DNA of 64,000 nt from Athripsodes cinereus (taxonomy: Eukaryota; Arthropoda; Insecta; Trichoptera; Leptoceridae), in NCBI GenBank assembly GCA_947579605.1, contig OX388318.1, forward strand, positions 868,001-932,000, in the 5' to 3' direction. A model generated the notes under the pieces. It saw only the letters and a list, made by a program, of their open reading frames with translations. It was not told where the DNA came from and did not search any database. How positions within the stretch are numbered: the first letter of the stretch is position 1; the number at the start of each line of letters is the position of its first letter. Below are positions 441 through 31,383 of this stretch, piece by piece. The position numbers were made by a program, and so were the translations under genes.

Positions 441-3400
441 ATGGTACGTACATATGTAAAGAAGACATCTAGATTATTTAGGTCGAAAAATTGGAAACAA
501 ACACATCGTATGGCTGAGAATGGGATGAATAAGGTGAAGAAATGGCTACAAACAAATTTACTAACCCTGAACGTGGATAAAACCAAATACATGACTTTTT
601 CCATTGATGCTAGAGGGCAACCCACCTGCACTGACCAACATACCATAACTGAACATGACTGTAGAAAACAATCACTGACTTGTAATTGTCCCAGGCTAAC
701 AAATACAAACAAATACAAATATCTGGGAATTACAATAGACAATAATTTGAGATGGACGGAACACATAGCGAATGTAACTAAAAGGACAAGACAACTTACT
801 TTTTTAGAAACATTAGAGACATATTTGACTTGAAAATCTTGAAAACGATGTATTATGCGCTAGGCCAATGTGTTCTCACTTACGGTATTATAGGCTGGGG
901 GGGTATGGCTAAAACGAATCTCTACCCTGCTGTAATTGCACAGAAGTCTCTCATTAGGGTAATCTGCCGGAAACCGTATAGATACTCATCTGATAGACTT
1001 TTCAAAGAATTTTCTGTACTGGACATACGACAACTATACATAAAGACGATAACTAAACACATACACCTAAATCCAACTCCATACATGCCACAACACATGC
1101 TTTCAGCAAATACACGAAATGGAAGACTATTGCAACCAATTATTACACATACGACTTTTGCTCAGAGATTCCTCACCTTCCTTGGGCCAAGAATGTATAA
1201 TCGAATAATCCCAAATATTGCTAAATTTATTTCCCCAAGTGGGAAAAACTTAAACAAATTGGTGACGAATTGGCTCATGGATAGGGGAAGAAGGGAGTCT
1301 GAGAGAGACCTGACGAACATAATACAATAACTGACTTACTCTTACATTAATCATATTTGCACATTCTAAATGACTTGACGTATGACATGCTATTTCATTA
1401 TGTATTTTGAATTATTTTAACTCTTATTCAAGTTTACATAAAAGAATTGTATTTTAAGTCATATTTGAAAAATTGTATTTTTGATATATGTATTTTTTTC
1501 TAGTATTGCCCCAGAACAGATTTTAATCTAGTGGGGCAATATATTCCATTATATTGTTTTTATGTTAATTTTGTATGCTCTATTGGAATAATAAATAAAT
1601 AAAAAAATAAAAAAGATGCAATATTTCAGAGACAGATATGAAAAATGCCATGAGAGATATTTTGCATAAAAAAAAATCAACAAGGACCGCAGCAACTCAC
1701 TATAATATATAAAGAGGTACAATACAGTCACGTATTAAGAAATTAACTGAAAAATATTCATTAGAGCAACTTAAAAATATGTTTAATTTTGATTCTGGGA
1801 ATGAAAGTGATGATGAAGCAGCACCTAACAATTTTAATACATTTTCAAGCAAGTATACAATTCGTCAAGTTTTTACTAAAGAGCAGGAAAAAATATTAGT
1901 GGGTTACATTATCAAAAGTTCAGATATGAATTATGGACTAACGTATAAGCAAATTCGGAAACTAGCCTATGAATATGGAAATTTGCTACCAGGAACAATA
2001 ATACCAAAACAGTGGATTGAGAACGCTATAGCCGGTACAGAGTGGTTAAAAGGTTTCATGAAAAGATGTTCAGATTGTTTAAGTTTAAGGAAACCAGAAA
2101 GCACCAGCATGGCTAGAGCCACAGGATTCAATGAACAAAGGGTCTCAGAGTTTTTTGATAATTATGTTCAGATTATGGAAAAACATAAATTTAAGCCGGA
2201 GAACATTTTTAATATTGATGAGACCGGAATAACTACGGTTATGCCGCCTGTAAAAGTAGTTGCTGCGAAAGGTAAAAAACAAGTTAGTTTGGTGTCTTCT
2301 GCGGAGAGAGGAGAGTTGACAACATTTGTTGGTATCATCAACGCAGCGGGGTCTTATTTGCCACCAGTTTTTGTTTTCCCCAGGATAAGAAGTCCAGGTG
2401 ATTACATTTCTCAAGGCCCAATATCTAGCTTGGCCCTTGGAAATCGTAGTGGTTGGATGACGGGTGAACTGTTTCCAAATGTTTTATCACATATTCAAAC
2501 GCATACAAAATGCTCTAATGAAAATAAAATTCTCCTACTTTTAGATAATCACGAGTCTCATGTAACAGTAAAATCGATAGATTTTTGTAAGCAAAATGGT
2601 ATAGTTGTCCTCGCTTTTCCTCCTCATACAACGCATAGACTTCAACCACTCGATATTGGAGTTTATGGACCTTTCAAGTCTAAATGTGCCGTTGCTTTCA
2701 ACGATTGGCTCACATCAAATCCTGGTAAAACTATTTCGATCAGGCAAATAGCAATGCTAGCCAACACTGCACTTTTAGGTGCTTTTACGCCCACAAACAT
2801 TATAAATGCTTTCAAAAAACCTGGATTGTGGCCTGTAAATCGATTAGCCTTTTCTGAAGAAGATTTTTCTGCGTGTAAAGTGTTTGATCAACCCATTCAA
2901 AACCCAACAACAACCCAATGTATCACTCCTCCGCCAACAATTATTTCAAATGTTGCAGTAGTTCCATCTTCATCTAAGACTCTGTGTACTTCTTTAGGAA
3001 AGGAGTCGTCTCCTATACCTTCAACGTCCCAATTATCTGTGCAAGATAATTTACAATGTACGCCTCTCTTACCAGAACATGTAAGACCGTATCCTCAAAG
3101 TGACTCCATTAAAAACAAAAATTCTAAAAGAAGGCAAAGTAAATCACGTATTTATACTGACACTCCTGAAAAACGTAGATTGGAAGATATGCATAATGAA
3201 AAAATCAACAAACAAAATAAATTAGAAGAGAGGAAAAAGGAAAAAGTTATGAGAAACATTTTCAAAAATAAGAAACAGATAAAATCAAGGAAGTATTCAA
3301 CGTCATCCAGTGACTCCGATACAGAAGTATTATTGTCTTCAGGTGAATCGTTTTGTATCACAAGTAGTGATGGAGAAGAAGAACAGAGCCTGAAGATATA

Positions 3401-3701
3401 TGATGACGAAAGAATCAGTGAAGACGATTTTTACCTGGTAAAGTTTTTATCTAAACGTTCGACAGTATACTTTGTGAGAAAAGTGATTGAGAAGTACGAG
3501 ACCCAGTATTTAGTCAAGTTTTTGAAGTGCAAGGGTCCACCATTCTACGTATTTTATTATCCAGAAAGAGAAGATGAATCATTGGTTAAACGAGATGACA
3601 TGGTAGCAAAATTGCCAAAGCCCCATTCACAACAAGGAACAGCACGAACAATGTGCATGTACACATTTAAGTTTAACTTTTCATCTTTTAACATTAAGTA
3701 A
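441..3701 (+). pseudogene. pogo-type transposase, split by a LINE and one nonsense codon
   Basis: The protein would be a DDE transposase that cuts and pastes the element. The first 11 codons (MVRTYVKKTSR, 441-473) are separated from the rest by the LINE. The same frame resumes at 1614 with the end of the helix-turn-helix (SETDMKNAMRDILHKKK). An in-frame TAA lies at 1710-1712, and the frame is then open to 3701. The DDE domain is intact: FNIDETG (about 2208), LLLLDNHESH (about 2536) and LQPLDIGVYGPFK (about 2641). A Ser/Lys-rich linker and a C-terminal tail (EDDFYLVKFLSKRSTVYFV) follow, as in insect jerky-like transposases. Apart from the LINE and one stop the gene is nearly intact, so it died recently. 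The 640-codon frame starting at 1779 lacks the DNA-binding domain. Confidence 0.85.
471..1617 (+). mobile_element. 5'-truncated LINE, C-terminal part of ORF2 and 3' tail
   Basis: The insert lies inside the pogo transposase frame with a short target duplication, AGAT, at 471-474 and 1614-1617. It encodes the end of the reverse transcriptase and the C-terminal region (WLQTNLLTLNVDKTKYMTF at about 541-597, KYLGITIDNNLRWTEHI near 720, LTYGIIGWGG near 879). One frameshift near 830 joins two frames, 475-833 and 830-1330. The 3' end is an (AATAA)-type A-rich tail at 1587-1613. The catalytic YADD box is absent because of 5' truncation. Chain features suggest the Jockey/CR1 side of LINEs; the clade is not certain. 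Confidence 0.8.
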
Positions 3702-4245: not shown

Positions 4246-4286
4246 CATTAGATCAGTGGTTCCCAAAGTTGACTGAGCTCCGACAC

Positions 4287-4395
4287 TTCTTCTTCTTCTT
4301 CCTAGCCTACTCCCGTCCATTCCTGGACGAAGGCCTCCTCCATCGCCTTCCACGCCGCTCTATCTTGGGCTCTTATTTTATAATGCGGCATCTTG
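4287..4395 (-). mobile_element. RTE-type LINE 3' end with (GAA)n tail
   Basis: On the minus strand this encodes the C-terminal tail of an RTE-type pol (RAQDRAAWKAMEEAFVQEWT, 4389 to 4314), a stop, and a GAAGAAGAA tail that abuts the 13-bp target duplication at 4274-4286. Only the last 100 or so bases of the LINE are present. The viral L fragment is joined directly upstream. The same family occurs at 11350-11590 on the plus strand. Confidence 0.75.
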
Positions 4396-5181
4396 GGAAA
4401 TTGGGATTTGAATACTGATGAAGAAAAATCATTTCATATTGGTCGTTTAATAGGATTTGTTTTTGCCGATTATATTTCAACAGCAGATTCCAGATCAAAA
4501 GAATCCACCTTATTTCCAATAGTATTGGCAAACAAATTATATCCTGAGGACTTTTTAGAAGGATTAATTGATGGAGTTCGTCAAGGATCTCTGTTATTTA
4601 TATCCCAACAACTCAGAGTTAAAACCAAAAGAACATTAGATGTAACACTGAGTGGTAGATTTTTTAACATAATGGAATGCATGTCCAAAAATGATGCCTT
4701 TATTAATATCGTCACTCATTCAAATTTCCAACAACAATTCAGAACTGCGCCTTTTAGAATACTACCTTCATACCCATCTAGCCATAAAGATATAGCTTAC
4801 AATTTTTTTAATTATATCAGATATAGATATGGACAACTTGAACATCAAATATATCCAAAAGTTGGAAGATATTTATGGATATTCTCTGATCTTCTGGACA
4901 CCGATAAGGTCGGATTATTTATAATTTCTAATAAACTTAGATTTTTGATGAATCCTAAAATAAAGACACTCAACAAAAGAAATCTAGCAACTATAAGATC
5001 ATGGACAGATATACAAGCTGCGGTAAGAAACAAGGAAGGAGGTTATGATTGTTTAGCGGAAAATACTGGATTATTAAGATTGTGTAATAGAGAAGTAAGA
5101 CATAGTTGTCGAGACATTGATCCAGTTATCAAGTTTCAGGAAACAGATGATGAATTTACATTCACCAATAAAAATATTTGA
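4396..5181 (+). pseudogene. Endogenous viral element 1B: negative-strand RNA virus L protein, post-capping/connector region
   Basis: About 261 codons remain open. They resemble the large polymerase protein of mononegavirus/jingchuvirus-like negative-strand RNA viruses just after the capping motif. Key stretches are FHIGRLIGFVFADYIS, the SRSKESTLFP segment typical of the L-protein connector, and RYLWIFSDLLDTDKVG. The start is set by the breakpoint, not by a start codon: the shared 10-mer GGAAATTGGG (4396-4405) also ends fragment 1A at 10547-10556 on the other strand. There is no viral promoter or leader. The frame has no stops, so integration looks young or the frame has been maintained. Family-level assignment (chuvirus versus another family) is uncertain. 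Confidence 0.8.
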
Positions 5182-5774
5182 CAGCTGTCAGAACGTCAAC
5201 ATTTTCGCGCGGGTAATCTGAAAGAGATTTATTAATTACTTTGAATATAACTGTGCGTTACAAATTAGTGTGCTCTAATTTTGTGGTGTTAAACAATCTG
5301 GACATTTTAACAATAGCATCATCGAACGGTATGTGATTTAAGATTGTTTTTTCTCAAATTAAAATTCGAATTTAAAATATTACATACCACATGAAAAAAT
5401 ACTTTGACCTTTCAAGACCTACTGAACAAATTATTTCACTCATTGAAGATGAAAATGACATTGACAGAACCCTGACATAGATAAAGTTAGTAATTCCATA
5501 GATAAAACATAGAAAAACTGCATATAATCAAAGACAAAAGTTTCATAGAACCATAAACAAAAATTGCACGAAACCATAGACAAGAATTACAGCCATAGAC
5601 ATTTATCCTATATAATAAATAATACCTCAATGAGGATATTATCATAGTGAACACATTGAACTTAACAAGTACTTGTTTTTGTGTATTTGTTGAATTATTT
5701 TTTTTAAAAAAAAAAAATTGTTTTTGTTTTGTGAACTGAGTTGTGTTGTTTATTGTCATACTAAAGAAGAAAAA

Positions 5775-7178
5775 ATGTCTAATATTATTAAAAGCGAAAA
5801 GATAAATAGGAATAACAGCTATATTATAATGGTTGACAAATCTATGGATGATGGTGGGCTCGAGGAAGCGCGCATCAATAACACATATACTATGGATAGC
5901 TCAAGTAATATCATAGATGAATCAACAAGAAAAAGTATAATTGACTCGGAAGAGATTGTAAACAGCTTTCCAAAGAACAAAGTAGATTCAAATGGGAATA
6001 TTGACAATTCTAAGAAAGATGTGTATAATTTTAGAAGGAATACAGATAGTGGTGAGGATACTCTGGGTACCCCCAAGAAAATTGAAGAAGAGCTAAAAAA
6101 GCAAACAAGTACTTTGAGGAGAGGAACAAATAGCTCCAAAAGAAACACGAATAACATCAAGAGAGACAAACTAGATGAAGATGGAACAAATACAATTAAA
6201 GAACTACAGGAGTGTAGGCGGGAGTTGAGGTTGAAAAATAGGGAGGTGTCTATTTTGAAAAAGAGAATTGATATTTTAGAGAAACAAGAGACAACCTTGA
6301 TAAATTACAAGAAAATAAATTCAGAATTAAAACAGTTAGTGGCAAGCAAAGACAATATACTAAAGAATATGAAAATAGAAATGCAGAGATTCTCTGAGAG
6401 TAGAAGAAGGGAGGTTGAAGACTACAAAAGGAATACTGAGGAGCTATTGTTGAAGCTGGAGGAGGCCAAAAGATTCAGTGACTCATTGAGGGAGCAAAGC
6501 TCGAATAAATCATATACAGGTTCGGGAATCAAACATATTCCTAGTATTGACCGAAAACTTAATAAGGATTGCACACAGAAACTGTCCGAATATTCTAAGC
6601 CAAAGTTGTTTGTGTTGGGAGATGAATTTGGCAAGGGAATGGGCATGAGGCTGTTTGAAGAAACAAATTTTGATGTTAATTGTAACTGCAAACCCTATGC
6701 AAAATTTAGCTACCTAGTGGATGATATATATCAGACAATCATGAAGGGAAAAGAAGGAGATGCCATTTTGTTGATAGTGGGAGGAAGCAGAGATAAGTTT
6801 TGCGAGAGAATCCGGGAAATCGAAAACATCGTCGTAAAAACAAAAGAGAAAAAAATCAAATTATTAATCTCTACAATTCATTATGTGAGAAATGAGAGAA
6901 AGAATGAACACATCTATAAATCAAATTGCAACTTGTATGACACTATTAGAAATAATAATCATGGTAGAATCATTGAGTTGAATGATGAAGAAGTTTCCTT
7001 AACGGATAAAATTATATTTAATCTAAAACATACCACCCAAGTAGCGAAAAACATAATAAACATTTGTTTGCAAGATGGTGAGAAACAAGAAACAGTGGAG
7101 GGGGAGAATGTTAGGGATAATAATATTTTTTTAGAGAGAGACAGAGGGGAGGAGGTAGCAGAGAGGGTGAAACAATAA
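5775..7178 (+). CDS. LINE ORF1: coiled coil plus SGNH/esterase-like domain
   Basis: The chosen start ATG at 5775 begins MSNIIKSEK; an upstream frame extension is poorly supported. The N-terminal 130 residues are charged and Ser/Asn-rich. Residues about 140-260 form a strong coiled coil (KELQECRRELRLKNREVSILKK onward in heptads), as expected for trimerising ORF1 proteins. The C-terminal 150 residues resemble the SGNH/GDSL-hydrolase-like domain seen in ORF1 of some CR1/Jockey relatives: KLFVLGDEFGKGM takes the place of the GDS block, and ILLIVGGSRDKF the place of the GxND block. The canonical serine and asparagine appear replaced, so activity is doubtful. It likely acts as an RNA-binding chaperone in the retrotransposition particle. 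The stop overlaps the ORF2 frame. Confidence 0.75.
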   Translation: MSNIIKSEKINRNNSYIIMVDKSMDDGGLEEARINNTYTMDSSSNIIDESTRKSIIDSEEIVNSFPKNKVDSNGNIDNSKKDVYNFRRNTDSGEDTLGTPKKIEEELKKQTSTLRRGTNSSKRNTNNIKRDKLDEDGTNTIKELQECRRELRLKNREVSILKKRIDILEKQETTLINYKKINSELKQLVASKDNILKNMKIEMQRFSESRRREVEDYKRNTEELLLKLEEAKRFSDSLREQSSNKSYTGSGIKHIPSIDRKLNKDCTQKLSEYSKPKLFVLGDEFGKGMGMRLFEETNFDVNCNCKPYAKFSYLVDDIYQTIMKGKEGDAILLIVGGSRDKFCERIREIENIVVKTKEKKIKLLISTIHYVRNERKNEHIYKSNCNLYDTIRNNNHGRIIELNDEEVSLTDKIIFNLKHTTQVAKNIINICLQDGEKQETVEGENVRDNNIFLERDRGEEVAERVKQ

Positions 7179-10021
7179 CAGTTGTCCATCAAAATGTGCA
7201 GGGACTGAGAGGGAAATTACATGAACTACAAACATTTGACCTCTCGGCCGTAGACATAGTATGCTGCACCGAATCTTGGCTGGAAGAAGATGAAGTTAAG
7301 ATTTATGATACACCTAATTTTAAAATAAACAGTAAATTTTGTAGGAAAAAGACAAAGAGAGGTGGTTGTTTGATTATGAAAAACATCCAATTACAATCAA
7401 AAAATAGACAGGATGTAGTAGACTGCTCAATCGAAAACCACTGCGAATTGAGTTGTATAGAGATAAAAAATATTATAATATTATGTGTATATAGACCACC
7501 ATCTGGTAATTTTAATTTATTCATTGACACAATTGAAAAAGTCCTGACAAAGATAAGTTACAAGAACAATAAATATATTATTGTATGTGGGGACTTCAAT
7601 ATTAACTTTGACAAAAGCTCTAAGGAGACTTGTATTCTTTTAGATTTTTTTAATAGTTTCCTATTGACACGCAGCATATTCACTGCTACACGAGTTACTT
7701 CACATTCTTCAACCTGCATAGACAATATCTTTACAGACTTAGTAGTTTTGGATATATCAAAAGTAAATATTGTAAAATCTGATCACTATGGACAGATGAT
7801 CGCTGTTCATGAAACTATAGATAAACACTTGGAAAATAATATTAAACATATAAATAGAAGAGTCTATAACAAAGAAAGCATATTTTTTTTTGAAGAGTCA
7901 GTATCATCATTGCGCGCTGATATTAATAATGATGACATAAATTCTGCACTTAATGAACTGTTTAATGTGATATTGACAGAAATAGATCACCATTTTCCTC
8001 TTAAACAAATAAAAATAAAAACTAAGAACACATTTCAGGTATGGTCTACTACGGGTATAAATGTGTCAAGAAAAAAATTATTCGAACTATATGAGGTGAA
8101 AAAACATACCACTTTAGAAACCACAAAAAGATATATTAGTAGGTATAGTGCGATTTTTAAGAAAGTTTGTATGGAAGCCAAAAGAATGTTTTTGTGTAAC
8201 CAGATCGCAAATTCCAAAAATCCTATCCAAACTACTTGGGAAATAATTAAAAATGAGACTGGACGATCAACTAGTGAATGTAATTCATTTGATAAACAGA
8301 TAACCCTTAAAGAAACTAATCACATGACTAACTTAGATACAGCTAACTTCTTTAACAACTATTTTGTAAATGTGGCGTCCTTACTAACAAATAAGTCTAC
8401 TCATTCTATTGACCAATCCTTGAAACATATTAAGAAAGAAACTATACATCTAAATACTAACTTTAAATTTAAAAATGTCACAACGGACGATGTTTTAAAA
8501 ACCTGTAAACTGATAAAATCAAAAACATCAAATGATATATGGCATGTTTCTACTCGCCTACTCAAAAACATTATAAATGGTCTATCTCCTGTGCTAACGG
8601 ACATAATAAACATTTGTTTTGAGAGCGGTACTTTCCCAGACTGCCAAAAAATTGCAAAAGTTATACCACTTTTCAAAAAAGGTGATAAATTAGATGTCAA
8701 TAATTACAGGCCAATATCAATCCTACCAGCAATTAGTAAAATCATAGAAAAAATTGTTACTGACCAACTCACAACATTTTTAGAACATAACAAAATAATA
8801 AATCACAATCAATTTGGATTTCAAAAGGGAAAGAGCACCTCTGATGGAATAGCCTCACTGCTTAAAACCATTTTAGATGCCCTTGATAAGAAAGAATCAA
8901 CTTGTGGTGTTTTTTGTGATCTATCGAAAGCATTTGATTGTGTCGATCATGATATATTACTCGAAAAATTAAAATGCTATGGAATTATTGATATGGAAAA
9001 CAGATTCTTTCAATCGTATTTAAAAAATAGACAGCAGTATGTTGAAGTTAATAATGCAAAATCACAGACTGTTAAAATAAGTAGTGGTGTTCCACAGGGA
9101 TCCGTGCTTGGACCGCTTTTATTTCTTATTTATATAAATGACCTCCCAAATTGTACTAACCCAAATTCTGAGATTGTAATGTTTGCTGACGATACCTCAC
9201 TGATTCTCAAAGGTAAAAAAAATAATTCAGAAAACATAAATAATGCTCTAGAAACACTAACATTACTAAAAAAATGGTTTGATGATAACTCTTTAGTCCT
9301 AAATATGACAAAAACGAGTGCTATGAGTTTCTCTCTTGGTGGACCAGACAACTTAGATCCATTTACCAGTGCTCTCTCTGAGAAAGGTATAGAGAAGGTT
9401 GTTGAAAGTAAATTTTTGGGAGTAGTTTTGGATGAAGGTTTGAAATGGGATAAACATATTGAACAATTATGCAAAAAGTTAAATAGTGCAATATATGCCA
9501 TAAAAAAAATAAAAGACATATGTGGAAAGGACACAGCTAAATCTGTCTACTATTCATATTTTCATTCCATTATGTGTTATGGGATTTTGTGTTGGGGAAT
9601 GGGCGCAGAATCAGGTAGAGTGTTTATTCTACAAAAAAGGGCACTTCGAACACTACTCGGTATGTATCCTAGAGATTCTTGCAGAACTGCGTTCAAAGAA
9701 CAGGGTATATTAACAGTTCCATGTGCATTTGCTCTTGAATGCTTGTTGTATGCACATAAAAATATTGACAAAACACCTTTTAACTCTGACTACCATGACT
9801 ACAACATAAGAACGAAAGAGTTAATACGCCTTCCTGAACACAGGTTAACTAAAGTGTCCAAGAGTTTTATCTGTGTGAGCGTTCGACTTTATAACAACCT
9901 ACCAAAAAAATTCAAAACACTGGATATTCTGTCCTTCAGGCGAGAGATTAAAAAGTATCTTGTTGGCAACGCCTTTTATACTATCGAAGAGATATTGGCT
10001 ATCAAACCGACTGACTCATAA
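7178..10021 (+). CDS. LINE ORF2: AP endonuclease and reverse transcriptase (FADD)
   Basis: This is the pol protein of the Jockey-type LINE. The frame is open upstream of any ATG; ITVVHQNVQGLRGKL overlaps the ORF1 stop at 7176-7178, so translation probably relies on reinitiation or a -1 shift and the exact start is unknown. The endonuclease occupies residues 1-220 (ESWLEEDE, VYRPPSGNF, VCGDFNINF, KSDHYGQM). Reverse transcriptase follows, with PLFKKGDKLDVNNYRPIS, the FCDLSKAFDCVDHDILL block, SSGVPQGSVLGPLLFLIYIN and the catalytic MFADD (about 9180). The tail ends with WGMGAESGRVFILQKRALR and RLYNNLPKKFK. No frameshift or stop is seen across about 945 codons. It nicks target DNA and reverse transcribes its own RNA there. 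Confidence 0.9.
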   Translation, partial: TVVHQNVQGLRGKLHELQTFDLSAVDIVCCTESWLEEDEVKIYDTPNFKINSKFCRKKTKRGGCLIMKNIQLQSKNRQDVVDCSIENHCELSCIEIKNIIILCVYRPPSGNFNLFIDTIEKVLTKISYKNNKYIIVCGDFNINFDKSSKETCILLDFFNSFLLTRSIFTATRVTSHSSTCIDNIFTDLVVLDISKVNIVKSDHYGQMIAVHETIDKHLENNIKHINRRVYNKESIFFFEESVSSLRADINNDDINSALNELFNVILTEIDHHFPLKQIKIKTKNTFQVWSTTGINVSRKKLFELYEVKKHTTLETTKRYISRYSAIFKKVCMEAKRMFLCNQIANSKNPIQTTWEIIKNETGRSTSECNSFDKQITLKETNHMTNLDTANFFNNYFVNVASLLTNKSTHSIDQSLKHIKKETIHLNTNFKFKNVTTDDVLKTCKLIKSKTSNDIWHVSTRLLKNIINGLSPVLTDIINICFESGTFPDCQKIAKVIPLFKKGDKLDVNNYRPISILPAISKIIEKIVTDQLTTFLEHNKIINHNQFGFQKGKSTSDGIASLLKTILDALDKKESTCGVFCDLSKAFDCVDHDILLEKLKCYGIIDMENRFFQSYLKNRQQYVEVNNAKSQTVKISSGVPQGSVLGPLLFLIYINDLPNCTNPNSEIVMFADDTSLILKGKKNNSENINNALETLTLLKKWFDDNSLVLNMTKTSAMSFSLGGPDNLDPFTSALSEKGIEKVVESKFLGVVLDEGLKWDKHIEQLCKKLNSAIYAIKKIKDICGKDTAKSVYYSYFHSIMCYGILCWGMGAESGRVFILQKRALRTLLGMYPRDSCRTAFKEQGILTVPCAFALECLLYAHKNIDKTPFNSDYHDYNIRTKELIRLPEHRLTKVSKSFICVSVRLYNNLPKKFKTLDILSFRREIKKYLVGNAFYTIEEILAIKPTDS

Positions 10022-10111
10022 TTTATAGCTTGCCAGCCTTTATATCATGTGTATGACTCATCGTTGACTTTTGTTCTTGTGATTTATCTGATAAATAATT
10101 AAATAAATATT

Positions 10112-10311
10112 GTACTTTGGACATGACACTAGGAGGACTCTTTACATCCTGCTAGTGTTGAAAAATATATTATAACATAATATTGTTGAGTGTAATGTGT
10201 GTCATTCGTCCTTCCTCTCTGTTTCTTTTGTTAAAAAATCAAATATTGTACTAAAGACGTGGTACTAAGGGGACTCTTTACATCCTTCTAGTACTGAAAA
10301 ATGCATTATTA
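10112..10311 (+). repeat. Duplicated unit in the LINE 3' untranslated region
   Basis: Two diverged copies of a 65-bp unit (10112-10175 and 10248-10311) share the pattern GTACT..GAC.T..ACTA.G.GGACTCTTTACATCCT..TAGT, then GAAAAAT. Such 3' UTR repeats may be the RNA segment recognised by the LINE reverse transcriptase. Confidence 0.6.
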
Positions 10312-10546
10312 TTATTATTTTTATTCACATTATATAATTATTATTTATGTTCAAATTTATATGTTCGGCAACTTTTTTACTCAATTTTCATTGTTTTGTC
10401 TCGATTTTGATGCCTTACTACTTTGTATTCTTTCATGTATTCTTTTTATCCTGTGTAATTATGATGAACCCAAGTGTCCTGTAAGGGGCCTATGGGGAAT
10501 GATTTACAATAAACAATAAAGAAACATATGAATCAATTACATTGTA

Positions 10547-11097
10547 CCCAATTTCCTTCTATTATATCCAATATAGGAATAGATTTAAACCAAGGTGTAG
10601 ATTCAGGTTTCCATTTCTTCAAGGTTTCAGAAACATCTGGGAATTCAATAGACACAGTAGAATCCAAATTAAAGTATTCGACTGGACGAAGACAATCTAA
10701 ACAATTAATATGGTAATGATCTGTAAAACTTTGATCATTCTTTGAGTGAATTTCCCCACTTGTCATTTGTCCGTATAATATACATGATTGAAACATAAAG
10801 TCATAATTAGCATCATTTAATTCACACATAGTATCTGTGGTTACTGACATATATGTTGATTTATTTGGGGATTGAGCAATAAAACCTCCTGCACTTTGTC
10901 TAGAACTACCATAACGATGTATAGAGCATCCTGTCCTCTGAACACCGTAAGGACACAAACTAGCATCCTCTCCAGTAAGACTTTTAATATTATTATTGAT
11001 TGCTGTTGCTAATTTAGAATCAGGCAATATATACCAATGGATTGCATCTCTTAATTTTGCTGCACGTGAAATGAGAGGAATTGATGTCTCCTTTTCC
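10547..11097 (-). pseudogene. Endogenous viral element 1A: negative-strand RNA virus L protein, capping (PRNTase) region
   Basis: Read on the minus strand this is L-protein sequence immediately upstream of fragment 1B in viral gene order. It includes AAKLRDAIHWYILPDSKLA, a cysteine-bearing stretch, GSSRQSAGGFIAQSPNK and STYMSVTTDTM, the segment that in mononegaviruses follows the capping domain (the S-T-T-D-T box). The fragment is open, without stops, from about 11097 to the 10-mer breakpoint at 10547-10556. Beyond the breakpoint (10541-10546 and lower) the sequence is no longer L. It is on the opposite strand to 1B although the two are contiguous in the virus. Confidence 0.8.
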
Positions 11098-11349
11098 CTT
11101 TTTTAAATTTCATGAGCTCCGACACATTTAACAAAAATTTCCAATCTTGAGACCCACTTTTTAGTTTTTTTTTTACAAAGTTATTGCAGTGGGAAGGATG
11201 TATTCGTTTCCAATTTTTCTTTATTACAGTTTTAGCACCCCATTTGGGCCCACTCAATATTAGCTCGCAACCCATAGTTTTGGAAACACCTACTGCACTA
11301 GGTAATATTATTCATGTATCGAAATTATAATTGGTCAATAAAATGTGAA

Positions 11350-11590
11350 AATCAAGTCCGTAGCATTGCGGTATGAGGGAGTCTGCCCTGATTTACATCA
11401 GGGCAAATAGAGGCTATACATCTTGGAGACCACGAGCAGTAACCTAGGAAGACCCCCGATGAGGTGGAGGGATGATATCGATTGACACTCTGGAGTAAAC
11501 TGGATGCAGACGGCGCAGAATCGAATGACATGGAAGGAAATGGACGAGGCTTTCGTCCAGGAGTGGACTGAGAAGAAGAATAAGATAGAA
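11350..11590 (+). mobile_element. RTE-type LINE 3' end
   Basis: This encodes the pol C-terminus of an RTE LINE (GRPPMRWRDDID, then a stop, SGVNWMQTAQNRMTWKEM, DEAFVQEWTEKKNK), ending in a GAAGAAGAATAAG tail. It is the same family as the minus-strand fragment at 4287-4395. The last 45 bp are included in the tandem duplication that follows. It is 5' truncated and decayed. Confidence 0.75.
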
Positions 11591-12770
11591 ATCATTTACG
11601 AGCATTTATTTTCAAAAATTTTCATGACTCAAGTAGAAATTGAACTCTGAATCTAATGTCAGAACCGACTTGGCACATGGCACTGAAATAACAGAGATAG
11701 CTGTAGAAACTAATGGAATGGATTTGACAATGGCTACAGCACAAGGAATTTTGATAACCGACGATATAAATGGAATTGAAAATCCAAGTAGCAGGAATGG
11801 ATCTAGTACGTAACAACATTATATTTTATGTAAATTGTATTTCCTTGCGTTGTTTCATTTTATTCTAAATTATACACAGTGTCATGGGAGTCTTATAATT
11901 TGGTATCGTTAGAATGGTACTAGTGTTGCCATCTATCGAAATCCTGTGAAAGCCCTGGCCCCCTATCCAGAGATATCGTAAATACCTTTTTGATATTATC
12001 ATAAAAACAGATTCCTTCTTCTTGATCCTCTTCCGGGGAGTCAGCCATTTTGGCCAGTCTCCCGCTGTTCGTCTCCCAACAGAGAACAGCGGGAACTCGC
12101 TCAATAAAAAATATCTCTTCTCTTTTTCTAAATACTGTGAGTGTCGCTTTTATAATGTAGTTCAGTATTAAAAACTGTGAATTGTTTTGTTTTGTGTAAT
12201 TATAAACTGTGTAACCATTTCTTCGTCAATAAACTGATCGTACAACATCATGCTAGTGTTTCCACTTCAAACCACCACATTCATTTTACCCAACGATAAA
12301 CCCTGAGAGAGCCACTGAATTCTGCCGATTATGAGCCGGCTGGGGAGGTAACGTTACAACAGCCAAGTGGATGCATTTTATTTGCTTTCAATAGAGAGGA
12401 CGAGGCTTTCGTCCAGGAGTGGACTGAGAAGAAGAATAAGATAGAAATCATTTACGAGCATTTATTTTCAAAAATTTTCATGACTCAAGTAGAAATTGAA
12501 CTCTGAATCTAATGTCAGAACCGACTTGGCACATGGCACTGAAATAACAGAGATAGCTGTAGAAACTAATGGAATGGATTTGACAATGGCTACAGCACAA
12601 GGAATTTTGATAACCGACGATATAAATGGAATTGAAAATCCAAGTAGCAGGAATGGATCTAGTACGTAACAACATTATATTTTATGTAAATTGTATTTCC
12701 TTGCGTTGTTTCATTTTATTCTAAATTATACACAGCCAAGTGGATGCATTTTATTTGCTTTCAATAGAGA
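11542..12770 (+). repeat. 373-bp tandem duplication, first copy interrupted by a solo LTR
   Basis: Bases 11542-11879 recur at 12398-12735 with no difference I can see (338 bp). Bases 12363-12397 recur at 12736-12770. Removing the LTR at 11880-12358 and its 4-bp duplication leaves two head-to-tail copies of a 373-bp unit. Each starts inside the RTE tail (GGACGAGGCTTTCG). The near identity shows a recent duplication followed by an even more recent LTR insertion. Identical short frames on the minus strand in each copy are by-products of the repeat. Confidence 0.85.
11880..12358 (+). mobile_element. Solo LTR (Gypsy-type) with 4-bp target duplication ACAG
   Basis: The 479-bp segment starts TGTCATGGGAG and ends AACGTTACA, the TG..CA ends of an LTR. 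It is flanked by ACAG at 11876-11879 and 12359-12362. The empty site is preserved in the second tandem copy (12732-12739). AATAAA-like signals lie at about 12103 and 12228. There is no internal coding region, so it is a recombination product of a complete element. Confidence 0.85.
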
Positions 12771-15038: not shown

Positions 15039-15976
15039 TTCTTTATTCTTTTCTTTTGTTTTTTCTCCGTTTAACGCTTCACTGTCAACCTTTCACAGTT
15101 AGTACAGTCACTTAATCTAATTATTATTATTTTGCATGTATAATTCCACACTTTCTAAAACTTTTAATGTGTCAGAGCCTCATCACAAAATAACTGTAAA
15201 CAAACGTGAAGTTGACCACAAATATAGCAGTTGTGCGCATTCTCTCTTGCGCCTCTACATCACAGGTGAGGTAACTTAATAATTTTCTCAACTGGTGTTC
15301 GTAAAATGCATATAAGTTTGTGTATTCACGTTCGTAAATACACCATAGAGATATAAGCGGGCGCATACCATAGTTTGTTTTCTACTCTGATTACTAATTG
15401 TATTCGCCACCTTTATAATAATATTTCCTTTTCTATGATTTATATGTAAATATTGCAACACTAAGACTGTTTACTGTTCTGTTTACTAATTGTGTTTCTT
15501 TTCTTTCATCGTGTGTCATGATATAGATATCAAAAATCTTATTAAATTGAATAAAAGTGATTCTGTAAATGTATTCGTAGTAATATAAACCAATACTTTT
15601 GCTAATTTATGTATGAAATTTGGATTGATGTTTTGAATTAATATTACCATCATATATTATGTGTCACAAACTGAATTGCTAAGGTTATACTGCATTAATT
15701 GAGGTGGTAAGTGCATACAACTCTGTCTGTTTGTTTTTTTTTTCTTTACATTTTGATTATCATTTAACTATTTACACAGCAAGATTAACATTTTAAATAT
15801 TTATATTGACTCTAATGCACAACCCATCTAAAACTGCCTCGCGGTAAATCGCTCCTATAAAACAATCTTATCACTTATTTTTATTTGCTTACTATTCTAT
15901 ATTAAGTATAACACCTACTTTCTTTATTTATTTATATATTTTATTTTGTTTTATTTTATTTATTAATATTGTACAA
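15039..15976. other. 938-bp spacer between the LINE ORFs
   Basis: No ORF of note. The sequence is AT-rich, with TTTATTTATATATTTTATTTTG-like tracts just before ORF2. Most two-ORF LINEs have touching or overlapping ORFs, so this length is odd and could reflect an insertion or an unusual expression strategy. No terminal repeats were recognised. Confidence 0.5.
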
Positions 15977-18900
15977 ATGGCTGAAACGGATGGCAATATG
16001 GATGGTGCGACACAGCATGGTGACTCTTTCCACTCCCTCCCTCCCTCTCCTTCCCGTTCCCCCTCTTCCTCAATCTCTTCCTACATCTCTGCTCAACAGT
16101 CTCTTTCTGATTCATATATTTCGGTTGCTAATTCTTCGACTGGCTTACCACCATCTTTTTCTGAACTCTTACAATCATCCCTTGACTCTTCTAGAAGAAT
16201 TCTCAATATTTGTCATATAAATGCACAGAGTATTCCCGCTCATCATAATGAACTACTTGCTTCTTTTTCAGATACTAATCTGCATGCTATCCTTGTCAGT
16301 GAATCTTGGCTTAAGCCCATGCTACCGTCGTCACTTTTCACTATCCCAGGGTTCAATCTGGTTCGCTGCGATAGAATTAACCGTGTGGGTGGTGGCGTCG
16401 CCATTTACCTACGGGAGGATATTGGTTATAAGGTCGTCTCATCTTCAGAATCACAGGTGGTGGGGGGAATGGAGTATTTATTCATTGAGGTACCTACCAT
16501 GCACACTAAAGTTTTGCTGGGAGTTGTATACTGCCCTCCAGCATGCAACTACTTTGCAGAATTTGAAACCTTATTGGAGTCTTTGACTCATAAGTATGTA
16601 CATAGTGTGATAATGGGCGATTTTAATACATGCATTATCAAGAATGATTATCGTTCTACTAAACTACTTAATGTGCTGAGCGCCTTGAATCTACAGGTGT
16701 TGCCACTGCTTCCAACTCACCACACATACACTACAAACACCATATCAGAGACATTACTGGACTTAATCATTACATCTTTGCCTGACCATGTAAAACGTCA
16801 TGGACAATTGACTGCTTCGGGTTTCTCAAACCATGACTTGATTTATTTATCATACAAAGTCAAACTACCTAAGGTGAAACCAAAAATTTACTCTTTTCGA
16901 AACTTTCGTCGCATAAATTTAGACCAACTATACGAGGATGCTGGAAAATTGACCTGGCAAAACATTTATGCATCTAATGACGTAAACTTTATGGTTGAGG
17001 AGTTCAACCGTTCCATTACCAATCTCTTTGATAAACATGCCCCAGTAAAGTTTATTCCAATGAAGCATCCTCCAGCGCCTTGGCTTACAGATGAAATTCG
17101 AAAACTTATGGCCCGGCGAGATCGAGCAAAAGTAAAATTTAAAACATCTAAATCCTCTCTTAAATGGGAGAAGTACAAGCTTCTACGTAATCGTTGCTCA
17201 CATCTCTGCCGTTTGGCTAAAAAAGATTTTTTTCTGTCCAGTATTGACTCATCCTCTCCTGGCGATGCGTGGAAATTTTTAAAGAAATATGGTCTGGGTA
17301 AGCAGAGCAATTCTGCTGATTCTGTAACTATTGGCCTTGATGAGTTGAATCTCCACTTTTCAACCCCGCCTGTTGAAATTGATCCCTCTATTAAAACCGC
17401 TTCCTTAAACAATCTTAGGGTTGTAAAGTCTTCCAGCGAACCCTTTAAGTTTAGATTGGTAACTTTGGAGGAGGTTCGCAAAACTCTCAGATCTATCAAG
17501 TCCACAGCTGTTGGGTGTGATGGTATAGGTTTGAAAATGATAAACCTTATCTCAGATTATATTACTCCAATCATTGTGTTTTTAATAAATTCTTCGTTTC
17601 TTTCAGCATCGTTTCCTAACCAGTGGAAAAAAGCAAATGTGATCCCGCTCGCTAAGGTTGACTCGCCATCTTCTCCAAAGGATTATCGACCTATATCAAT
17701 TCTGCCTCTACTTTCAAAGATCATGGAAAAACTTGTGTATCAGCAATTGAATGACTATCTTCTGGCTAATAATTATCTCAATCAATTCCAGTCTGGTTTT
17801 CGTAGGGGACACAGTACAACCACCGCCCTTCTTAAGATTTCTGAGGATGTCAGGTCCGCTATGGAGGTAAGACAATTGACATTGCTGACACTTTTAGACT
17901 TTAGTAGTGCCTTCAATAGCGTAGATTTTGATATCCTTCTGGCCCGATTGGAGGCCCTAAATATTTCTGGCGATGCTCTCCGTTGGATAGACTCCTACCT
18001 TAGGGGCCGTCAGCAGAGAGTCTGTATAGGTGATGGAACATCCGATTGGGTCGGCCTTGGGGTGGGAGTCCCACAGGGTTGCATACTGTCCCCTTTACTC
18101 TTCTCTATCTTCATCAACCCGATTACTGAACATCTTCATGGAGCCTATCATCTTTATGCTGATGATCTCCAATTATACATTCACTTTGATCTGAATAATA
18201 TTGATACTGCTTTTCTCAATATGAATACCAATCTCGAATATATAAATTTGTGGTGTAGAGACCATGGACTCTTGGTTAATCCAAGCAAATCGCAGGCAAT
18301 CATTATCGGAAGTCCTAGGAGTCTGTCTTCTCTTACTTCACTTGCTCCTTTACCATCTTTAGTCTTAAATGACTCTACTATCCCCTTTTCTGATGTTGTT
18401 AAAAATCTGGGTTTATTCTTCGATACTAAATTATCATGGTGGAAACAAGTCAACATGATCAGTAAAAAAGTATTTGGTTCGCTGCATTCGCTTAGGAGAA
18501 TGCAGAATTTCCTTTCAGTAGACACAAAAAAACTATTGGTTCAATCTTTAATTCATCCCTTATTTGACTATGCGGATGTCTGTTATTTGGATCTCTCGGT
18601 GGAAGGCTTGAATAAGTTGGAACGTCTTCAGAATACTTGCATTCGATATGTGTTCGGGCTCAAGAAGTATGATCATATATCTGAATATCGTGAACGCCTT
18701 GGCTGGCAAACTATTCCTCAACGCAGAAATGTTCACACTCTTTGTCTTCTTTATAAGGTTTTATTTGATCCCAACACTCCATTGTATCTGAAGGAAAGGT
18801 TTGAGTTTTTACACTCTCATGGACTACCACTACGATCGGCCTCCAACAATCTTCTGGTTATCCCGTCCCATCATTCGAGCTGTTACACCGATTCTTTTTC

Positions 18901-18994
18901 AGTTCATGGTGCTAGGTTGTGGAACCAGCTGCCGCAAAAAATTCGCACTTGTTCTTCTTTTTATATCTTCAAGAAGGAGGTTAATGGTCGCTAG
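15977..18994 (+). CDS. CR1-like LINE ORF2: AP endonuclease and reverse transcriptase (YADD)
   Basis: The 1005-residue pol begins MAETDGNMDG; the true start could be a few codons away. After a Ser/Pro-rich leader (about 70 residues) comes the endonuclease: LNICHINAQSIPAHH, VSESWL, VGGGVAIYLR, VVYCPPA, VIMGDFNTC, SNHDLIYLS. The reverse transcriptase follows with NVIPLAKVDSPSSPKDYRPI, SGFRRGHSTTTALL, LLDFSSAFNSVDFDILL, VGVPQGCILSPLLFSIFIN and the catalytic HLYADDLQLYI (about 18145). The C-terminal tail has FDYADVCYLDLS, LERLQNTCIRYVFG and SVHGARLWNQLP. There are no stops or frameshifts, so the copy may be competent. It shares family motifs with the fragment at 33.2-34.3 kb. Confidence 0.9.
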   Translation: MAETDGNMDGATQHGDSFHSLPPSPSRSPSSSISSYISAQQSLSDSYISVANSSTGLPPSFSELLQSSLDSSRRILNICHINAQSIPAHHNELLASFSDTNLHAILVSESWLKPMLPSSLFTIPGFNLVRCDRINRVGGGVAIYLREDIGYKVVSSSESQVVGGMEYLFIEVPTMHTKVLLGVVYCPPACNYFAEFETLLESLTHKYVHSVIMGDFNTCIIKNDYRSTKLLNVLSALNLQVLPLLPTHHTYTTNTISETLLDLIITSLPDHVKRHGQLTASGFSNHDLIYLSYKVKLPKVKPKIYSFRNFRRINLDQLYEDAGKLTWQNIYASNDVNFMVEEFNRSITNLFDKHAPVKFIPMKHPPAPWLTDEIRKLMARRDRAKVKFKTSKSSLKWEKYKLLRNRCSHLCRLAKKDFFLSSIDSSSPGDAWKFLKKYGLGKQSNSADSVTIGLDELNLHFSTPPVEIDPSIKTASLNNLRVVKSSSEPFKFRLVTLEEVRKTLRSIKSTAVGCDGIGLKMINLISDYITPIIVFLINSSFLSASFPNQWKKANVIPLAKVDSPSSPKDYRPISILPLLSKIMEKLVYQQLNDYLLANNYLNQFQSGFRRGHSTTTALLKISEDVRSAMEVRQLTLLTLLDFSSAFNSVDFDILLARLEALNISGDALRWIDSYLRGRQQRVCIGDGTSDWVGLGVGVPQGCILSPLLFSIFINPITEHLHGAYHLYADDLQLYIHFDLNNIDTAFLNMNTNLEYINLWCRDHGLLVNPSKSQAIIIGSPRSLSSLTSLAPLPSLVLNDSTIPFSDVVKNLGLFFDTKLSWWKQVNMISKKVFGSLHSLRRMQNFLSVDTKKLLVQSLIHPLFDYADVCYLDLSVEGLNKLERLQNTCIRYVFGLKKYDHISEYRERLGWQTIPQRRNVHTLCLLYKVLFDPNTPLYLKERFEFLHSHGLPLRSASNNLLVIPSHHSSCYTDSFSVHGARLWNQLPQKIRTCSSFYIFKKEVNGR

Positions 18995-23363: not shown

Positions 23364-23925
23364 AGGTATTTCGTTTATATTTGCATTAATAAGGATAATT
23401 ATGACGATGACGATGACTATGAATTAATGGATATATGCATGAATTTAATTAATGTATTGTCAGGATGCAAAACATCCGACATAAGTAAATAGGTTATATG
23501 TCAAAAAGATTCAAATTCCCCGCCGAATTAGAAAACCACAAATCACTTTTTAGTTTCAAATTGTCAATCCTGTAAAAAGTAAATAAGGGACACCAACATA
23601 AAAATGCCCAGTTCACTCGTTTTGTCTATGCCCCTTCCTCTTCCGTTTTGACCATGGCGTAGGATAGCACGCCTAGTGACGCTCTCTGTTTTAAATATTC
23701 TGTAAATTCACAAAAATAGTGAAAAATGGCTGAAAAAGACACCATAAGTGTCTAGTCTAGTGCCCAGAACCAGACCTGAGAACGGGAACAGATATAACGG
23801 TGTCTGTAGTGCTTACAGGGAAGACGCGAAGCACCAAGGCGTGGTCAACCCCAACGCAAAGAGTTAGTAAAGCTATTCATCTGTGTTGAACACCGAAATG
23901 GTGTTCAACACAACACCACAATAGA
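23364..23925. other. Non-coding spacer before viral fragment 2
   Basis: No gene is supported. The part 23720-23925 is GC-richer than its surroundings and contains a short hairpin-like segment (GTGTTGAACACCGAAATGG and GTGTTCAACACAACACC, about 23883-23916). It could be a 5' untranslated region of the Gypsy element that joins the viral fragment downstream, but no primer-binding site could be identified. Confidence 0.35.
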
Positions 23926-25940
23926 TTTCCTGAGCTTAACCAGTACTCCTCAGAGTACATGGCGTGCCTACTCTCTACATCAAGGATACTAGGGGGCTTC
24001 CCTGTGACTCTCTTTGCCAATTTTTATACTCGATCTGTGCAAGATCCTCTCACCACCAACTTACATTTAGTAAGAGAGTTTATGATGTCTCCTCGCCATT
24101 CAAGACACATGTCTAGGATACCATCTACCAGAATGAAACCCACAGATCCAGTTATGCTTATCAAGGACCCGCAATCTCTCCCATTAGTGATGTCTATCCA
24201 GCCTGAGAATTATATGAAAGGGATTATTGCCAAAGGTCTCCCGGATCTGATAAAGAGCAAAGAGGTAACACCTTTATTCGGCCCTGATATGGAGGATGAG
24301 AAGGCAAACCTTGTCCATAACACCCTGCAATCCAAAGTTGATATCCAAATTGATGACACTCTCCAATGTAGGAAAGCAGGAGGCACTGATCAGTAAGTTT
24401 TCTAACACACGCTCCATTCAGTCCATTGCGACGCGTGAATGGAATAGCGAGGTAGAGAGGTTAAAGAGTGTTCAGCTCCTAGAGGAAGAATCATTCTCTC
24501 AGATTACAAGGAGAGGAGTCGATGGAACAATTCACAACATCCTAAACAGCCCTTGTCTGACTAGATTGGCCCAACAACTCAGGGAGCTTGGTTGGGGCTT
24601 GCCACTGGAAGGAATAACAATGCCAGCTCAACAGGAGCAATCATGCATATCGCAATGGGACAAAATACATCCCTCCCTTATACCCAGAACCATCACAATT
24701 CTTAGTTCTGCAGATACCCTTAGCCCTCGAACCATCACTCGTGGGGAATACAACCCATACATAGGAGCCCCTACAAGAGTTAGAGCCAAAAGACAACCCC
24801 TTCAGGAGACTGAGTCATACAGCTTCTCGCAAGCCATTCTTCAAGCAATTCAGCTCAGATCTTGGGTTAACGGCGATCAAGTCTTAATGCAGTTACTAGG
24901 AAATATTATTAAGGAGAAAACGACAGCATCAGAAGAGGAACTAGATAGAAGAACTGCCCATGTATACTCCGGAACACTTACTCACAGATTACCATGCCCA
25001 ACAATGAGTAGGGGAGGACAGAGCAATGGAACAAGCAATTTTGCCTAGCACTTTTGGATTTGCTCAAGCACAGCAACTGATTTTGCCAAGAAGGGAACAG
25101 ATTACACCATATGCTTCCAGTCTGTTTTTTTGTACGACTTATCAGTTCTCAACATCATGTACCACAAATATGGCGTAATACCTGATAAAATGGGTATATT
25201 CTTAGCACCAGGATGCTGCATATGGACCATAGCACCAGAGGTATTCTCGTTGCCTGTTAGTTATTATAGAGGTGTAGTGATTCCAACGGCAATCCTTGAA
25301 ATAGGTACAACCACATCCTCCAATATCCCATTTGAATGTGCCAAAGCTGATGCAACTAGATCATATGCGGCTCACAAGTTTGCCGTATGGATACTGAATA
25401 GACGAGATACATCCATCATATCAGCCTTAGAGAGGAGAGCTATTACCGAGACATCAACTCCACCCTTTGTCAACCTCTAGGAAACTAGTCGACTAGATTT
25501 AAGAGAGTTCTTCCCTATGTTAATTAGTTATTTGTTAATATTTGATAGGAAGATGTCGTCCAATCTTTCAGACGAATTGACATCCATGAAAGAGTCACCC
25601 ACAAGAATTGGTATAGACGATGTAGCGGATACAATTTTGCTGTCTGGACTAACACATTCATTTTGTTCACTAGCCAAAATTCAAGTAGACTCTATAACAA
25701 CAAAAATTGAATGGCGGAACCACATACTATCATATCTCGCTACTATCCATGGTCTAGATGAAAGAGGTCTCCTTCTATCAAAGATGTGTCTCTTACCAGA
25801 AGAGAGCACTCACCTGTTGGATAGGTGGATCAAGAGTTTACTGTACCATTTCCAGCTCAGCAAAAGAGCTTTTCTTGGATTGACAAATCCCCTCATCTCG
25901 GCCATAGAAGCCATCAAGCTCCGCTGTACCAATCAAGGAC
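23926..25940 (+). pseudogene. Endogenous viral element 2: negative-strand RNA virus L protein (post-palm to connector)
   Basis: Covers a long run of L: SRILGGFPVTLF (about 23986; the LGG-F/Y-P box), a second frame from about 24390 with NPYIGAPTRVRAKRQPLQ, LRSWVNGDQVLMQL, HVYSGTLTHRLPCP and MSRGG (capping domain), then STATDFAKKGTDY and the connector (SNIPFECAKADATRSY). Breaks are a frameshift at about 24390, an in-frame stop at 25046-25048 and another at 25478-25480. The LGG-P box is shared with element 3 in clearly different flanking sequence, so this is a different virus lineage. It ends by running into Gypsy pol near 25940. No viral signals are retained. Confidence 0.8.
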
Positions 25941-29325: not shown

Positions 29326-30504
29326 TAATTAATGGCATTAATATAACATAAACTAATAAAATGAGATACTTAGAACTTGAAGTTGATGATTCATTAAACT
29401 GGTCAGGTTATATACAAGCTCTTAATGCATGTGCTGAATGGGGAACTAGATACTAATGTGTGTTATGTTATAAAAATAAACTTGTGTCATTTACTATAAG
29501 TGCGCAGACCCATTCCGAATGCTGACTGTGGCATATGGTGAAGCTACCTTGGACCAAAGCAACGTTTATCGGTGGTACAAGATGTTTTCAGAGGGCCGAG
29601 AAGATGTGAACGACGAAGAGCGTGCCGGACGCCTGAGCATGTCAACAACAGACGAAAACATTGATAAAGTGAAGAAAATAGTATTAGCCAATCGTCAAAT
29701 CACCGTTAGAGAAGTTGCTGAGGACCTAAACATATTGATTAGCTTGTGTCATTCGATTTTAACCAATAATTTGGGCATGAGTCGGGTCACTGCAAAATTC
29801 GTGCCAAAGTTGCTCAACTTCGACCAAAAACAGCATTGCGTTAACATTGCTCAGGAGATGTTGGACTCGGTCCGTGACGGCCCAAATGTGCTCCAGAGGA
29901 TCATAACTGGTGACGAATCATGGGTTTATGGTTATGACGTGGAAACCAAAGCTCAATCATCCCAATGGATGCTGCTGCACAACCCAAGACTGAAAAAAGT
30001 GTGTCAAGTTCGGTTGAACGTGAAGGTTTTGCTCAGTTTTCTTTGATTGCAGGGGTAAGGTGCATCATGAGTTCTTGCCAGAGGGTAGTATGGTCAATAA
30101 GGAATATTACCTGCAAGTTACGCGCAATTTGTGCGAAGCAATCTGCCAGAAACGCCCGGAAACTGGCTTTTGCACCATGATAATGCCCCTGCTCACACAT
30201 TGTTGCTTGTGAGCGAATATTTGGCCAAAAACAACACAGCAATGGTGCCGCAGCCACCGTATTCCCCAGACCTGGCCCCCTGTGACTTTTTCCTGTTTCC
30301 AAAACTGAAGAGGCCCATAAAAGTTGCTCGTTGCTGTTCGTGGTCCATCCTCTGGACCTGTAAGACATGCAGACTTGGTGGCCACAAGGAAGACTTTTTC
30401 GCCTTCAAAAACTTCTGTACTTTCTTTGGTAGCCTAATATCCCCTTCAAGTAACTAACGATACTCCATGGAGAAGAAGGCATATTCCCATTTTTTCCCTT
30501 CCGT

Positions 30505-31330: not shown

Positions 31331-31383
31331 TGAATTTTTTGTTCTCACCTACATCCATTCATCCATATAAATCCACATACCTC
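31262..31383 (+). repeat. 61-bp tandem duplication at the end of viral fragment 3
   Basis: Two adjacent copies (31262-31322, 31323-31383) begin GGAATTGATGAATTTTTTG and differ only near the end (TACTCATACCTC versus TCCACATACCTC). The duplication shifts and ends the viral frame. Confidence 0.9.

Follow-up and report, generated by a model that had tools for sequence, protein, structure and literature searches.

A fragment of a rhabdovirus-like polymerase (L) gene has been captured into a chromosome of the trichopteran Athripsodes cinereus together with the tail of a host retroelement. The locus lies in a 64-kb window, the whole stretch of DNA analysed here (positions 868001-932000 of contig OX388318.1, assembly GCA_947579605.1), on a contig of 26.5 Mb in a genome of 716 Mb in 160 contigs; all coordinates below are window positions, and one allele was read from one assembly. 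A single 13-bp target-site duplication encloses ∼1.35 kb of rhabdovirus-type L, in two pieces, and the 3′-terminal 110 nucleotides (nt) of a repeat resembling a short interspersed nuclear element (SINE), with a long interspersed nuclear element (LINE) sitting between the two viral pieces. At a probability of about one half, we favour a single target-primed insertion in which the reverse transcriptase (RT) jumped from SINE-like or RTE RNA to a viral template and the second DNA end was likewise extended on viral RNA. The entry of RNA-virus fragments into insect-type chromosomes is often inferred from their transposon neighbourhood; here, in a clear example of RNA-virus sequence capture by host retroelements, the join of retroelement RNA and viral L can be read at base resolution inside one target-site duplication. 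From left to right, the insert comprises the following features.

4274..4286, plus strand: left copy of the target-site duplication, 13 bp (exact, two copies in the window)
4287..4396, minus strand: 3′ end of the SINE-like repeat, 110 nt, 5′-truncated, its (GAA)n tail adjoining the 13-bp repeat (matches positions 361-470 of the reference copy at 99.1%)
4396..4405, plus strand: 10-mer GGAAATTGGG, start of viral piece B, with an inverted copy at 10547-10556 (exact)
4396..5173, plus strand: viral piece B, rhabdovirus-type L, connector domain, residues 1348-1585 and possibly slightly more of L of vesicular stomatitis virus (VSV) (PF21080, E = 1.3e-30; VSV L, E = 7e-27)
5174..10520, plus strand: full-length LINE with two open reading frames (ORFs), probably nested and outside the capture (3′ end supported by 14 other copies, 5′ end by 3/9 probed places)
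10521..10546, no strand assigned: 26 nt of non-LINE sequence separating the LINE tail from the 10-mer (not found downstream of the tail in any of 14 other LINE copies; unique in the window as an exact word)
10547..11112, minus strand: viral piece A, rhabdovirus-type L, mRNA-capping region V, VSV L 1168-1350 (PF14318, E = 9e-25; VSV L, E = 3e-50)
11113..11125, plus strand: right copy of the target-site duplication, 13 bp (exact, two copies in the window)

The borders of the insert are sharply defined. The 64 kb contain exactly two copies of the 13-mer TGAGCTCCGACAC, at 4274-4286 and 11113-11125, and none of 100 shuffled controls had two. Its left copy abuts the (TTC)n side of the element at 4287 with no gap, and its right copy touches base 11112, ∼10 nt (11103-11112) from the viral open frame, which starts at 11102. 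With the LINE removed, the plus-strand order reads 13-mer, element (reverse), 10-mer and piece B (sense), junction, complement of the 10-mer and piece A (antisense), 13-mer. Transposon frames flank the insert on both sides within the 26.5-Mb contig, as expected of integration into a host chromosome, and a direct repeat at the tail and at the far end, together with a 5′-truncated element fused to foreign sequence, are the marks of a target-primed chimeric insertion. A preliminary description of this DNA had already recognised the bracketing repeat, the common inverted 10-mer at both viral breaks, the position of viral L directly beside an element end and the contiguity of the two viral pieces on opposite strands, and all of these held. 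It had taken the insert to be viral and RTE sequence only, overlooking that most of the interval (∼5174-10520) is a young two-ORF LINE.

Assignment of the viral pieces to a “rhabdovirus-type” L rests on protein profiles and solved structures, and would place the virus accordingly; homology extends over more than one domain of the protein (PF14318 in piece A, PF21080 in piece B). Alignment to L proteins, which the preliminary description had proposed, upheld viral L and narrowed the match from the mononega- or jingchuviruses named there to the rhabdovirus type. For both pieces the next match in the PDB was weaker (6ueb, “Large structural protein”; E = 1.5e-35 for A and 8.5e-15 for B). Searches for closer viral relatives at the protein level returned none at E 0.001 among 316 and 30 candidates, a comparison confined to proteins of similar length and thus excluding full L, and two scans of viral contigs gave 1 and 3 pattern matches, with no relative confirmed.

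The two pieces abut in the virus. Piece A terminates in the residues GNW at VSV L 1350 and piece B opens with codons for the same GNW; the alignment of piece B with VSV L spans residues 1356-1585, the right end of the piece being fixed by the LINE 5′ end at 5174-5179, and passage from A to B neither gains nor loses a residue relative to VSV L. The 10-mer GGAAATTGGG is present only twice in the window, at 4396-4405 (plus) and 10547-10556 (minus), and 0/100 shuffles had two copies. The common word is exactly 10 nt long, with neighbouring bases differing on either side. Two independent breakpoints in a 6.4-kb gene would fall within 10 nt of each other in ∼0.3% of cases. Because of the shared 10-mer, the preserved register and this low chance expectation, A and B are best regarded as a single viral stretch severed at one point.

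To characterise the retroelement end, positions 4287-4395 were used as a query, and 40 of 481 candidates were scored. The 41 matches listed comprise the window itself, a second match inside copy L004 and 39 other places at 97-99% identity. Sister copies at 19 of these 39 places (L002-L008 and 12 more) were examined, with L008 (470 nt) as reference, and all 19 are of the same 470-nt SINE-like type. The 18 other copies align to L008 over 120-470 nt, L004 and L057 doing so in two rearranged pieces and L058 with gaps (91.5%). Seven of 19 copies, counting L008, begin at base 1 of the reference, and the rest lie within the 470 nt; pairwise comparison of L002-L008 found no homology further upstream, the 12 remaining copies being compared with the reference only. 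“SINE-like” is used here as a label suggested by the small size and by the common start of 7/19 copies, and the 3′ end is of a kind that we take to be RTE-type. Upstream of the motif CATCTTG, L002-L008 (n = 7) continue with GTTGTTGTTTTGGAGGG, where the window instead enters viral sequence; element and virus share a single G at this junction, so that base 4396 can be assigned to either (1-nt overlap).

The minus-strand “RTE pol 3′ end” and (GAA)n tail of the first description are therefore upheld as regards the retroelement 3′ end, the tail and the strand; over its 110 nt the end is that of a 470-nt SINE-like repeat, for which an RTE parent is possible. A SINE-like starting RNA with an RTE-type 3′ end would be as likely as, or more likely than, an RTE’s own RNA, a choice between which 110 nt cannot discriminate. 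Accordingly, the proposal that an RTE RT started on its own RNA and then jumped to viral RNA stands for target-primed capture with a jump, and yields on the identity of the starting RNA.

The sister copies also show what this machinery can do. In 11/19 copies the two flanks have an exact 8-13-bp word in common (10 bp in L002, 12 in L003, 11 in L006, 11 in L008, 12 in L055, 13 in L056, of which the first 3 bases may be tail, 11 in L057, 8 in L058, 12 in L061, 11 in L064 and 10 in L066). The repeat lies ∼15 nt from the element 5′ end in L055 and 3-4 nt from it in L003 and L008; in the remaining 8/19 copies the longest word shared by the flanks is 5-7 bp. L004 (1022-1609, in element orientation) is a template-jump product in which reference 2-425, belonging to a second copy, is joined to 305-470, the last 166 nt, with a 2-nt overlap, and its flank repeat is imperfect (GAGATCAAT versus GAGATCACAAT). 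L057 (G000:C8:19965680-19966380, 342-650) is 5′-inverted, running from reference 315 back to 144 and then from 329 to 470, with a 5-nt overlap at the inner junction and the whole copy inside an exact 11-bp repeat. A template jump in L004 and a 5′ inversion in L057, one case each, indicate that the same machinery can both jump and invert. Since the repeat at the viral locus is placed as in the sister copies, the element is truncated exactly at the virus and L004 documents a jump, capture by target-primed reverse transcription is supported.

In the mechanism that we favour, RTE-type machinery would have nicked the target and started target-primed reverse transcription on SINE-like (or RTE) RNA. 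At the 10-mer, after ∼110 nt, the RT would have switched to negative-sense viral RNA as its template for piece B. From the other target end, extension on viral RNA would have run through piece A and stopped ∼10 nt into the stretch where the first complementary DNA (cDNA) began. Once the two cDNA ends were joined, the halves would face each other, adjacent in the virus and with 10 nt in common. The two-ORF LINE would have inserted later, 26 bp from the inner junction. Because both cDNAs are viral-sense, the template would be negative-sense (genomic) viral RNA. More tentatively, and at less than even odds, in a SINE-primed insertion the jump onto rhabdovirus genomic RNA and the extension of the second end may have used the same RNA, a single viral genome molecule then being copied from both target ends with a 10-nt overlap. 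If true, this would amount to double-ended capture of a viral genome in one event. The locus offers a concrete, testable case for genomic versus message RNA as the copied template.

Several lines of evidence speak for the favoured mechanism. The 13-bp repeat stands against the element tail, like the 8-13-bp repeats of the sister copies; element homology stops where the virus starts; pieces A and B abut in register, as set out above; and one event would explain both abutment and overlap, its two components each having a single precedent among the 19 copies. Among segments in human LINE-1 chimeras, those from 5S are often and those from transfer RNA mostly antisense, and antisense-biased segments there may indicate twin priming (PMC13174262). 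As in classical twin priming, the opposed segments lie within one target duplication.

Several observations weigh on the other side. The geometry is not that of classical twin priming, because the inner end of piece A adjoins the element-side end of piece B; L057 does have the classical geometry, with reference 315 (outer) next to 329 (inner). As the geometry differs, the favoured mechanism is not filed as classical twin priming. A staggered-break inversion, too, is marked by an inverted duplication at both ends, here 10 bp and exact, and a jump or an inversion is seen in just 2/19 sister copies. Sense orientation predominates for the U6, U3, 28S and Alu segments of human LINE-1 chimeras (PMC13174262). 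Finally, the best match of the 26 nt at 10521-10546 anywhere in the insert region falls at 5141-5162 (17/22, a count for which no significance was computed), beside the LINE 5′ end, where a target duplication of the LINE would lie; the place is striking, and the favoured mechanism leaves it unexplained.

A serious if less probable contender is a two-step history in which a sense chimera A-B-element was made on message-sense L RNA and the B segment, with or without the LINE, was later inverted through a 10-nt staggered break between A and B, leaving GGAAATTGGG inverted at both ends. A filled-in staggered break leaves such a 10-mer, as in Drosophila inversions (PMC5080602), U6, U3, 28S and Alu segments usually have the sense orientation in human LINE-1 chimeras (PMC13174262), and a LINE inserting 26 bp from the breakpoint could have supplied the break. 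However, the second break must have hit the virus/element border exactly, or small pieces must have been lost, because nothing separates the element from the 10-mer and no upstream sequence of the element stands beside the 26 nt. The inversion would also be an extra event in a young insert, whose element matches the reference copy at 99% and whose viral pieces keep open frames of 265 and 189 codons. Overall, later inversion explains the 10-mer almost as well as the single-event model does, and one allele cannot separate the two.

It is improbable that a single RT changed templates two times, leaving element RNA first for a negative-sense and next for a positive-sense viral RNA, or that it copied a viral RNA that was already rearranged, such as a copy-back RNA. 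A template jump does occur in the family (L004), and for a fungal LINE a double template jump has been put forward (PMC2104539), but a copy-back RNA would repeat the same region on both strands, when the halves share just 10 nt, and a strand switch requires two separate RNA 3′ ends to coincide within 10 nt by chance. Among the origins first suggested for the opposed halves (a strand switch, a copy-back RNA or a later inversion), a copy-back RNA fits poorly; inversion fits, as does double-end priming on one viral RNA. An origin of the 10-nt overlap in ping-pong processing of PIWI-interacting RNAs (piRNAs) was set aside by reasoning, since the overlap here would lie at RNA 3′ ends rather than 5′ ends.

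The LINE itself has the following two frames.

5775..7178, plus strand: LINE ORF1 (open frame; no Pfam match)
7124..10021, plus strand: LINE ORF2, endonuclease and reverse transcriptase, stop-to-stop frame (RVT_1, E = 2e-38; Exo_endo_phos_2, E = 7e-8)

From stop to stop the frames measure 494 and 965 codons, and the best protein match of ORF2 has 51% identity over 97%. A search with the LINE 3′ end listed 40 matches, from which 14 copies were taken besides that in the window. All 14 share ...TTTACAATAAACAATAAA, mostly with extra tail repeats, and then diverge from one another; the tail in the window ends at 10520. The 5′ end (5174-5179 in the window) was present at 3/9 probed predicted places (L047, L048 and L054; 99.5-100% over 206-251 nt). 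Eight copies match the LINE at 98.9-100% over ∼1.7 kb, and the LINE is therefore young. For target duplications, 6 of the 14 copies had a 5′ end far enough inside to be tested which, with the 3 full-length copies, made 9; a flank-shared word of at least 8 bp outside the tail was found in 0/9 (for L039, only words of at least 9 bp are excluded). An insertion into piece B that left no duplication is thus ordinary for this LINE, which was probably nested after the capture as a separate event. A diverged relative of the LINE is present in L010 at 2300-3140 (67% over 421 nt), with a ACAATAAACA-type tail.

On the simplest reading, the 26 nt at 10521-10546 are probably what is left of piece B on the outer side of the LINE. 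The inversion junction would then lie at 10546/10547 and not at the LINE, and the LINE would be later and separate; being young, and with 26 nt between its 3′ end and the inner junction, the LINE is not required as the maker of that junction. The 26 nt were also considered as a diverged target duplication of the LINE. This was not adopted, since the LINE leaves no recognisable duplications and a divergence of 23% is unsuited to a young LINE. When the two LINE flanks were aligned, the best alignment drew on the LINE tail rather than the 26 nt alone, and was equalled by 68/2976 random pairs (2.3%). That the LINE caused the opposed halves, by inserting between A and B with the 10-mer as its target duplication and B flipped in repair, is highly improbable. 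The LINE does sit between the halves with its 3′ end 26 nt from one copy of the 10-mer, yet its tail stops at 10520 and not at the 10-mer, the intervening 26 nt follow none of the 14 other LINE copies, and 0/9 testable copies carry a duplication of at least 8 bp outside the tail. An assembly artefact or chance similarity, to which the reading of the junctions in one assembly only might point, is the least credible explanation of all given the 13-bp repeat at both borders, the strong profile matches and the 26.5-Mb contig. Twenty sampled 10-kb stretches of the genome contained no copy of the LINE and no empty site, and only 27 nt of the left flank recurred (in L011).

Much of this architecture has precedents. 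LINE-1 chimeras with other RNAs have a retroelement 3′ end, 5′ truncation, another RNA upstream and one target-site duplication, as here, and twin priming was proposed for their segments in opposite orientation (PMC13174262); 5′-inverted L1 has likewise been described (PMC2912911). Here, however, the foreign RNA is viral L split into opposed halves and a SINE-like element with an RTE-type end takes the place of LINE-1; the text of PMC13174262 has no word beginning with “virus”. In LINE-mediated non-retroviral endogenous viral elements, host retroelements similarly copied viral RNA into the germ line and left a target-site duplication, but the mammalian cases described carry a poly-A tail (PMC2987831), whereas here the tail is that of a retroelement joined to the virus. 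Lepidopteran SINEs with RTE-type 3′ tails (HaSE of Helicoverpa) are also short elements sharing a 3′ end with an RTE partner, with duplications of 5-18 bp for HaSE1 and of 15 and 10 bp for two RTE copies (PMC3272025). Their tails are TGA-type where those here are GAA, no viral cargo is mentioned in the excerpts of that report, and the link between the families is a resemblance only. Drosophila staggered-break inversions share the inverted duplication at both ends of an inverted segment, but are chromosomal (PMC5080602), while the segment here would be <6.2 kb. A tripartite chimeric retrogene of Magnaporthe consists of directly fused copies of several RNAs, with double template jumps, but involves cellular transcripts, virus being unmentioned in the excerpted text (PMC2104539). 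An open-access literature search for a SINE/viral chimera found nothing of this form in the titles or the beginnings of abstracts of the papers it listed, and one on endogenous viral elements with twin priming listed a single review. LINE-1 chimeras, 5′ inversion, RTE-tailed SINEs and LINE-mediated viral elements were thus already known, and what sets this locus apart is a viral L fused to a SINE-like end and split into opposed halves.

The window as a whole is rich in viral pieces and transposons and could possibly represent a piRNA cluster. A second, different mononegavirus-like L is found at 23890-25477 (plus) and 30438-31367 (plus). Within the first part, 23890-24393 matches PF00946, 24269-25045 matches the end of PF00946 and PF14318, and 25049-25477 matches PF14318 at E = 0.002, below its cut-off. 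The best solved match of 24269-25045 is 9q3a (“RNA-directed RNA polymerase L”, E = 3e-11), presumably a bornavirus-type L. The segment at 30438-31367 covers PF00946 782-1007 and, because this overlaps the range of 23890-24393, is a separate viral piece. Immediately to the right of the insert, two 300-nt direct copies (11542-11841 and 12398-12697) are 100% identical and 856 bp apart; they overlap or adjoin sequence resembling the 3′ end of the SINE-like repeat (11531-11568 and 12398-12424), and we read the pair as a recent local duplication. To the left, ∼580 bp from the insert, a 662-codon open frame at 1713-3698 (plus) carries a DDE_1 transposase domain (E = 1e-16). Two further LINE-type frames with endonuclease and reverse transcriptase lie at 15848-18991 and 54509-57544.

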